Positions 26,191 through 28,691 of a DNA stretch of 33,056 bases are shown in pieces (position 1 is the stretch's first letter; each line of letters starts with the position of its first letter). The notes beneath the pieces are model-generated. The model was not told the origin of the DNA. It saw only the letters and a program-made list of their open reading frames with translations, and searched no databases. The position numbers were made by a program, and so were the translations under genes. The DNA is from Candidatus Rokuibacteriota bacterium (GTDB lineage Bacteria; Methylomirabilota; Methylomirabilia; Rokubacteriales; CSP1-6). The stretch covers positions 1 to 33,056 of the forward strand of contig QHSB01000089.1 in NCBI GenBank assembly GCA_003220335.1, read 5' to 3'.

Positions 26191-26223
26191 GGGCCCCCGT
26201 CACCGCCTGCTAGAATGCGGGGC

Positions 26224-27357
26224 ATGACCCCGCTTCGCGTGGGGGTGATCTTTGGCGGGCGGTCGGGCGAGCACGAGGTCTCGCTCGCCTCGGCCGCATC
26301 GGTGATCGCCGCGCTGGAGCATCGCGGCCACACCGTCGTTCCCATCGGCATCGGCCGCGACGGCCGCTGGGTCGTCGGCGGCGATCCCCTGCGCGCCCTC
26401 GCCTCCCAGGCGCGCGTCGGGCTGCCGAGTGGCGACGCGACGGGCGCAGTGAAGAAGGCGCTCGCCGACCGCGCCGAGAGCGCCGACACCACGCTCGCCT
26501 CCACCGCCATGGTACGCACGGAGCCCGCCGGCGGCATGCCCGCGGAGCTGCGCGCGGGGCTCGACGTCGTGATCGTCATGCTCCACGGCCCCTACGGCGA
26601 GGACGGCACCATCCAGGGTCTCCTCGAGCTGGCCGACGTGCCCTACGTCGGCGCCGGCGTGCTCGCGTCCGCGGTCGGCATGGACAAGGCGACGATGAAG
26701 GCGGTCTTCTCCGCCCACGGCCTGCCGATCGTCGAATACACGGTGGTGCTGCGGCACGAGTGGCGCGAGCGGCCCGAGCGCGTCGCGCGCCGCGTGGCCG
26801 AGGTCACCGGTTTCCCCTGCTTCGTGAAGCCGTCGAATCTCGGCTCCAGCGTCGGCATCAGCCGCGTCACGGAGGCGGCCGCGCTGCCCGCCGCCCTGGA
26901 CGAGGCGGCGCGTCACGACCGTAAGATCGTCGTCGAGCGCGCCGTGCGCAAGCCGCGCGAGGTCGAGGTGAGCGTGCTCGGCAACGACGCGCCCGAGGCG
27001 TCGCTGCCCGGCGAGATCACGTACGACGCCGAGTGGTACGACTACGCGACGAAGTACGCCGAGGGCCAGGCGCGGATCACGGTGCCGGCGTCCATCGGGC
27101 CCGCGCTCACGGCGCGCGTGCGCGACATTGCGGTGGCCGCCTTCCGCGCCATCGACGCCTCGGGCATGGCGCGGGTGGACTTCTTCCTCGAGAGCGACCG
27201 CGTCATCCTGAACGAGATCAACACCATCCCCGGCTTCACCGCGACCAGCGCCTATGCCCGGCTCTGGGAGGCCACGGGTCTCGCCTACGGCGAGCTGATC
27301 GAGCGCCTCATCGCGCTCGCCCTCGAACGCCACCGGGATACGAGGCACACGGGTTGA
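26224..27357 (+). CDS. ddl: D-alanine--D-alanine ligase
   Basis: VGVIFGGRSGEHEVSLASAASV, LHGPYGEDGTIQGLLELADVPYVGAGVLASAVGMDK, FVKPSNLGSSVGISRV, FFLESDRVILNEINTIPGFTATS. ATG 26224 (26215 possible). Confidence 0.95.
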   Translation: MTPLRVGVIFGGRSGEHEVSLASAASVIAALEHRGHTVVPIGIGRDGRWVVGGDPLRALASQARVGLPSGDATGAVKKALADRAESADTTLASTAMVRTEPAGGMPAELRAGLDVVIVMLHGPYGEDGTIQGLLELADVPYVGAGVLASAVGMDKATMKAVFSAHGLPIVEYTVVLRHEWRERPERVARRVAEVTGFPCFVKPSNLGSSVGISRVTEAAALPAALDEAARHDRKIVVERAVRKPREVEVSVLGNDAPEASLPGEITYDAEWYDYATKYAEGQARITVPASIGPALTARVRDIAVAAFRAIDASGMARVDFFLESDRVILNEINTIPGFTATSAYARLWEATGLAYGELIERLIALALERHRDTRHTG

Positions 27358-27382
27358 CCGCGAGCGCGCGAGCGGGCCACGG

Positions 27383-27562
27383 GCGATGATCGCCCGACCG
27401 TCGAGCGCCGGAGCCCTGCGAGACCGTGCGCGATGATCGCCCGACCGTCGAGCGCCGGAGCCCTGCACGGCCCCCGCGCGATGATCGCCCGACCGTCGAG
27501 CGCCGGAGCCCTGCACGGCCCCCGCGCGATGATCGCCCGACCGTCGAGCGCCGGAGCCCTGC
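27383..27562. repeat. Tandem array: four identical 37-nt units separated by 10, 11 and 11 nt
   Basis: GCGATGATCGCCCGACCGTCGAGCGCCGGAGCCCTGC at 27383-27419, 27430-27466, 27478-27514 and 27526-27562; inter-units GAGACCGTGC, ACGGCCCCCGC, ACGGCCCCCGC. Confidence 0.95.
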
Positions 27563-27587
27563 GAAGGCGCTCCGACGCGAAATACCA

Positions 27588-28691
27588 ATGATCGTCATCG
27601 CAGGCGGCGGCACGGGCGGCCACACTTCGCCCGGGCTCGCCGTCGCCGCTGCGCTCCGCGCGCGCGGCATCGCCTGCGAGTGGATCGGCAGCCGCACCGG
27701 CCTCGAGGCGCGCCGCGCGCCGGAGGCCGGCATCCCGTATCACGCGATCCGCACGGGCAAGCTGCGCCGCGCGCTCGCGTGGCAGAACGTCCCCGACGTC
27801 TTCGTCAACGCGCCGGCCGGCGTGCTCCAGGCGTGGCGCCTGCTCCGGCGCCTGCGACCGCGCGTCGTGTTCGCCACCGGCGGCTTCGTCGCCCTGCCCG
27901 TCGCGCTGGCCGGCGCGCTCGCGCGCGTGCCCGTCGTGGTCCACGAGCAGACGGCGGTGCCCGGGCTCGCCAACCGCGTGGCCGCGCGCGTCGCGCGCCG
28001 CGTGGCGGTGACGTTCGCGGAGTCGGCGGACGTCTTCGGCGGGACGGCGACGGTCGTCACCGGTAATCCGCTGCGGCCCGAGCTGCGCACGGGCAGGCGC
28101 GCGGCGGCGCTCGAGCGCTTCGGCTTCGACCCGGCGCTGCCGGTCGTCTACGTCACGGGCGGCGCCCAGGGCTCGCACGCGATCAACCGCGCCATCGGCG
28201 AGGTGCTCGCCGAGCTGCTGACGCAGACGCAGGTGGTGCACCAGTCGGGCGACAACCACGCGACGGGCGACCGCGTCTGGCTGCAGGCCCGGCGCGCCGC
28301 GCTCGCCCCCGCGCTCGCCGCGCGCTACGCGCTCCGGCCGTGGGTCGGCGACGAGCTGGCCGACGTCTATGCGGCGGCCGCGCTCGTCGTCAGCCGCGCC
28401 GGCGCCGGAACGGTCAACGAGTGCTGCCAGCTCGGCGTGCCCGCGCTCTACATTCCGCTGCCGAGCGCCGCCGGCGACGAGCAGACGGCCAACGCGAAGC
28501 TGGTCGGCCGCGCCGGCGGCTGCGCGATCCTGCCCCAGGCGGCGATGACGCCCGCGCTGCTGCGCGAGCGCATCCAGCAGCTGCTGGCGGACCCCGCGCG
28601 GCTCAAAGAGATGGGCGAGCGCGCGCGCACGCTCGCCGTCCCCGACGCCGCCGACCGCATCGCCGACTTGCTGCTGGAGATCGCTGCGTGA
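27588..28691 (+). CDS. murG: UDP-N-acetylglucosamine--N-acetylmuramyl-(pentapeptide) pyrophosphoryl-undecaprenol GlcNAc transferase
   Basis: MIVIAGGGTGGHTSPGLAVA, ATGGFVALPVALAGAL, VVHEQTAVPGLANR, TGNPLRPEL, VTGGAQGSHAIN, VVSRAGAGTVNECCQLGVPALYIPLPSAAGDEQTANA. Frame also open upstream through the repeats to 27426. Confidence 0.95.
   Translation: MIVIAGGGTGGHTSPGLAVAAALRARGIACEWIGSRTGLEARRAPEAGIPYHAIRTGKLRRALAWQNVPDVFVNAPAGVLQAWRLLRRLRPRVVFATGGFVALPVALAGALARVPVVVHEQTAVPGLANRVAARVARRVAVTFAESADVFGGTATVVTGNPLRPELRTGRRAAALERFGFDPALPVVYVTGGAQGSHAINRAIGEVLAELLTQTQVVHQSGDNHATGDRVWLQARRAALAPALAARYALRPWVGDELADVYAAAALVVSRAGAGTVNECCQLGVPALYIPLPSAAGDEQTANAKLVGRAGGCAILPQAAMTPALLRERIQQLLADPARLKEMGERARTLAVPDAADRIADLLLEIAA

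Follow-up and report, generated by a model that had tools for sequence, protein, structure and literature searches.

The four identical repeats between ddl and murG in the window (the whole stretch of 33,056 nt of Candidatus Rokuibacteriota DNA that was analysed) probably represent a single copy, expanded in place, of a hairpin element dispersed among gene junctions. Its NTGA mini-ORFs would relay ribosomes at sites without a Shine-Dalgarno (SD) motif (no-SD sites). The element is dispersed, restricted to one lineage, present or absent at orthologous sites, and biased in position and orientation at gene junctions; its hairpin covaries, its unit number varies, and at most no-SD sites a reading frame runs through it without interruption.

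According to the mechanism proposed here, the element would settle mostly in sense at the junction of co-directional genes, directly before the start codon, and a mini-ORF starting from the upstream stop (NTGA) would cross the element and end on the downstream start at no-SD sites. Ribosomes would be handed on by termination-reinitiation, so that coupling would survive an insertion that would otherwise abolish it, and the insertions that survive would either maintain the relay or stand ahead of a gene that has an SD itself. In the window, three truncated units would have arisen ahead of the complete hairpin through tandem duplication of the 5' half. At overlaps of -4 and -1, termination-reinitiation works efficiently, while a gap of about 20 nt nearly abolished coupling for the six gene pairs examined in Haloferax volcanii and E. 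coli (PMC10666635). Because of this near abolition, an overlapping junction that receives 64 to 230 nt should leave an SD-less downstream gene silent unless the inserted stretch is itself translated; studies with a weaker distance dependence of coupling are cited in a review (PMC12548453). A bolder proposal, namely a mobile translation-relay cassette that spreads by installing a coupling mini-cistron, and whose hairpin or internal loop tunes ribosome flow at dozens of junctions, is considered unlikely.

The array between ddl and murG

A preliminary description had reported four perfect 37-nt tandem repeats, with periods of 47, 48 and 48, in a 230-nt gap between two cell-wall genes. All of this holds: the copies are identical (27383-27419, 27430-27466, 27478-27514 and 27526-27562), the gap was measured between the ddl stop (27357) and the murG ATG (27588), and both genes were confirmed by Pfam matches (Table 1). 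The TRF score of the array is 318, and every other array in the window scores far lower. The genome-wide search for the unit that had also been suggested gave a divided answer: the 37-mer occurs at four places in the genome, all in this array, even with three mismatches allowed, yet the 3' end of the array (27533-27584) is part of a dispersed repeat, for which a blastn search with the ddl-murG gap as query gave many matches in the same genome and its relatives. The 3' arm (27566-27578) is found in unit 4 only; units 1-3 are 5' halves, and units 2 and 3 share an identical spacer. The dispersed family, the hairpin, the reading-frame relay and the 3' arm of unit 4 go beyond the preliminary description. 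A CRISPR array was rejected, as it requires unique spacers of repeat length, and here they have just 10-11 nt and two of the three are identical.

Table 1. Features of the ddl-murG region, with positions in the window.
Feature	Positions	Strand	Remarks
ddl (D-Ala-D-Ala ligase), upstream gene, stop TGA 27355-27357	26215..27357	+	Pfam PF07478, PF01820
Mini-ORF 1 (TTG ... TGA), ends in ATGA overlapping mini-ORF 2	27354..27389	+	putative, frames only
Unit 1, 5' half of element (5' arm + loop, without 3' arm)	27383..27419	+	
Mini-ORF 2, ends in ATGA overlapping mini-ORF 3	27386..27436	+	putative, frames only
Unit 2, 5' half of element	27430..27466	+	
Mini-ORF 3, one frame through units 2-4, ends in ATGA at murG start	27433..27591	+	putative
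Unit 3, 5' half of element	27478..27514	+	spacer same as that of unit 2
Unit 4, complete element: hairpin + A-rich tail	27526..27583	+	covariance model match 27535-27587
Hairpin 5' arm, CCGTCGAGCGCC	27541..27552	+	
Hairpin 3' arm, GGCGCTCCGACGC, unit 4 only	27566..27578	+	
murG, downstream gene, ATG 27588	27588..28691	+	Pfam PF03033, PF04101

Identical, evenly spaced units with short odd palindromes are what an operator array binding a dimeric regulator of murG would look like, and the two palindromes described for each unit, CGATgATCG and CGACcGTCG, are both present. They are, however, not what the copies of the element conserve: the first includes the opening 7 nt of murG, ATGATCG, and is absent as a conserved motif at other sites, where the second often reads CGAACGTCG. 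Moreover, the junction is co-directional and its genes overlap by 4 nt in several relatives, the same element stands before many unrelated genes, and the unit number in relatives ranges from 0 to 4, all of which makes a protein-binding operator highly improbable.

The element and its hairpin

As read from its recurring places, the complete element is GCCCGA CCGTCGAGCGCC GGAGCCCTGCGAA GGCGCTCCGACGG CAAAT, a hairpin followed by an A-rich tail. Half units followed by one complete unit are also found at L055, L057, L061, L063 and L064. Among 116 distinct copies, 98.9% of the hairpin pair cells hold standard pairs, and two-sided changes occur at 9 of the 13 pairs. The cells with two-sided changes number 90, where shuffles gave 16 ± 3 and slid controls no more than 10, in an alignment that was fitted to the covariance model and therefore leans towards structure. 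Compensations are also visible by eye (GAGCGCC/GGCGCTC, GGGCGGC/GCCGCCC, GAGCCCC/GGGGCTC, GGGCACC/GGTGCCC). Such covariation could come from a function in RNA or in single-stranded DNA, or from a DNA palindrome corrected by template switching. In alignment A2 of the apical hairpin, GGA almost always forms the 5' side of the internal loop, opposite a purine-rich strand of GNA type, and the inner two-pair helix covaries; loop and helix could together form a putative protein-binding motif.

The strong covariation and the conserved purine-rich internal loop, along with the sense orientation beside start codons, are consistent with a cis-regulatory RNA, in which a protein or ligand bound by the hairpin would control the downstream genes jointly, the extra units tuning murG. 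Such a role is nevertheless improbable, given that the downstream genes come from unrelated pathways, that the same junction is filled or empty between congeners, and that in Rfam 15 no family scored above its gathering score for the element. As for an RNA structure affecting murG, which the preliminary description had raised, it is plausible for the complete unit 4 with its strongly covarying hairpin, whereas the extra units 1-3 lack the 3' arm.

Distribution and possible mobility

By using the covariance model (E < 1e-6), at least about 30 full copies were found in the genome of the window, some of them tandem pairs, which leaves about two dozen sites. Among the matches listed, two congeners have at least 33 and at least 30 copies, G006 at least 14, and other genomes 1-8. 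The element is present in at least 31 of the 57 genomes of one Rokubacteria family and, among the matches listed for the covariance model, in 0 of 38 genomes from other families of the phylum. The carriers are Candidatus Rokuibacteriota according to the named contigs, and mostly MAGs from soil and groundwater. No plasmid match for the element was found, viral contigs gave no match to a restrictive element pattern, and no literature on such an element in Rokubacteria was found.

The ddl-murG junction carries 4 units in G000, 3 in G001, 4 in G072, 2 in G067, 2 in G010 and 1 in G006. The site is empty in the congener G002 (TGAcATG), and in several genera the two genes overlap by 4 nt (TTGA, GTGA) and are free of the element. 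This comparison among relatives had been proposed at the outset, and the series 4, 3, 4, 2, 2, 1, 0 across species, together with the likeness of units within one locus, supports a recent local expansion, or VNTR. The suspicion of an assembly artefact is countered by similar arrays in separately assembled genomes (G001, G072, G067 and G010), the exact unit number being uncertain in a draft MAG.

In the same manner, the gcvT-gcvH junction holds the element in G000 and is empty in G001 and G002. It is from presence and absence alone that we infer the mobility of the element. The Y1/RAYT transposase (PF01797) is absent from the four richest genomes (G000, G001, G002 and G006), which are drafts, so that this absence is not absolute. 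The longest shared words had a mean length of 5.48, against 5.15 ± 0.13 for shuffled pairs, a target-duplication signal that is marginal overall. Duplication is clear at some sites (L176, L179, L159, L149 and L080) and, as ATGATCG, in the window, where the array units carry this start of murG as if it had been duplicated upon insertion. In other Rokubacteria, a different GC-rich palindromic repeat occupies the ddl-murG gap, in tandem at L221 and singly at L232, so that unrelated repeats may have a hot spot at this junction.

Position and orientation at gene junctions

At 126 distinct sites, the element was in sense to the downstream coding strand in 106 cases and antisense in 7, and to the upstream coding strand in 100 and 11, respectively, the remainder being unclear. 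At 89% of scorable sites, the distance between the element tail and the start codon is -6 to +20 nt, and at 84% the upstream stop is found no more than 50 nt from the element, with gene frames called by a simple codon-score script that was trained on the window and applied to draft MAGs. Inspection of the sequences gave the downstream genes such names as murG, gcvH, nuoJ, rplL, pdxS, clpB, dihydrolipoamide dehydrogenase and transporter subunits. The upstream stop is NTGA at 73 of 107 sites; gcvT-gcvH, compared with the ddl-murG overlap of several relatives, is no overlap site.

A minority of copies (L108, L161, L162, L172 and L196) appears opposed to the flanking genes. Others have tRNA genes as neighbours instead of protein genes (L064 near 1124 and 1393, L131 and L174), where the tRNA is either encoded on the opposite strand or lies downstream, and these copies do not fit the translation-relay reading. 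At hyuA-like loci of several genera (L037, L041 and L059), a hydantoinase-A-like protein carries the element as an in-frame N-terminal fusion, for example MKRVRRPTVERRSPTRPTRD...RIGIDVGGTNTDAV, with no other start codon adjoining the conserved domain. In murG of genus g9 (L039, L042, L017 and L117) there is no ATG, GTG or TTG right after the element, except for one TTG; translation may start within the element, upstream, and MurG would then be extended at its N-terminus. A nuoI-like gene upstream of nuoJ appears to enter the repeat array at L038, L056 and L138, and its predicted product would have a repetitive C-terminal extension.

The proposed mini-ORF relay

In the window, three mini-ORFs join ddl to murG via four NTGA overlaps (TTGA at 27354; ATGA at 27386-27389, 27433-27436 and, at the murG start, 27588-27591), a relay that by itself is not significant, as 23% of Markov gaps couple. 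The wider comparison took the sites with an NTGA upstream stop and counted as relay a gap of -4, -1, 0 or +1. A relay onto the downstream start was found at 28 of 37 no-SD sites versus 4 of 16 SD sites (Fisher p = 0.0008), where related sites are not independent and the SD patterns are our own choice. The Markov-gap null for the no-SD sites is 7.5 ± 2.3 of 37, and the in-silico deletion of 1 or 2 nt lowers the observed count to 3/37 and 2/37, respectively. Counted by downstream gene family at single-unit sites, the coupling frame is present in 10 of 13 families without even a weak SD (p = 0.0016) and in 5 of 13 with SD. Tandem periods of 3n+1, which would break both the relay and in-frame fusion, account for 5 of 14 in SD arrays and for 3 of 27 in no-SD arrays, and one of those three (L018) seems to be a false half-unit call.

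This frame pattern is where a neutral selfish repeat has to be weighed, REP-like or MITE-like and tolerated in junctions, whose frames would follow from a shared element length and not from selection. The element is dispersed, palindromic and lineage-specific, it has tandem copies, and a distance of 67 nt is common to many coupled sites, all of which would suit such a repeat. However, the coupled single-unit distances are 55, 64, 67, 70, 73, 79 and 82 nt, and since they vary while every one is 3n+1, the frame is probably not just a by-product of fixed length. The frame preference is moreover seen at no-SD sites and not at SD sites, and no Y1 transposase was found in the four richest genomes, all drafts. 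A neutral selfish repeat is improbable, and part of the frame agreement may still come from a common element length and insertion point.

The reading frame across the 5' arm takes all three values among the coupled sites (17, 12 and 2 sites), and a conserved mini-ORF peptide was rejected on this ground; a 1-nt loop insertion is offset by a shifted start. Since the mini-ORFs read the hairpin in different frames, the object of selection is likely the delivery of ribosomes and not a peptide.

Comparison with known repeats

The best analogue is found in the mycobacterial interspersed repetitive units (MIRU) of Supply et al. (1997), as far as they are described in a review (PMC12548453). This review depicts MIRUs as seemingly mobile repeats that go in at start codons and have an ORF of their own, coupled to the gene at -4 nt; their insertion probably has little effect on expression (PMC12548453). 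Both are short dispersed repeats in co-directional junctions, placed at start codons and oriented with the genes, and both form tandem copies of variable number. An internal ORF coupled downstream is also shared, here, in terms of coding frames only, at the 28 of 37 no-SD sites and not at SD sites. In contrast, the host phylum differs, the element in Rokubacteria has a covarying hairpin as its core and stacks truncated 5'-half units ahead of a single complete one, and the mini-ORF frame through the element varies between sites. The element may thus be called MIRU-like by its shared logic, a name that carries no claim of homology.

Rickettsia palindromic elements (RPE) are palindromic repeats that can sit in frame inside protein genes. 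By description, they resemble the present element in this in-frame placement, seen here at the hyuA N-termini, and differ in host and sequence and in that the main site here is the gene junction and not the gene interior. BOX elements of Streptococcus pneumoniae are modular repeats with a variable number of one module, and we know of no coupled mini-ORF in them. The likeness, again by description, lies in this variable module, whereas sequence, host and placement are different. REP sequences, with GTAG and CGTC super-families (PMC3733652, where RPE are also mentioned), are likewise short dispersed intergenic palindromes, and a CGTC tag motif occurs in the 5' arm here. This motif, however, lies inside the paired arm and not in an unpaired end tag, and membership in the REP/RAYT system was rejected on account of the paired tag and the lack of a Y1 transposase in the richest genomes.

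Implications

An array of this kind can be misread as an operator or as the N-terminus of a protein. If the proposed explanation is true, related sites with and without SD would form a natural experiment on which genes need the ribosomes of their neighbour, and the same sites would probe how far coupling stretches. Repeats that survive insertion by preserving stop-start coupling would then not be a mycobacterial peculiarity, but would also exist in a distant soil lineage.
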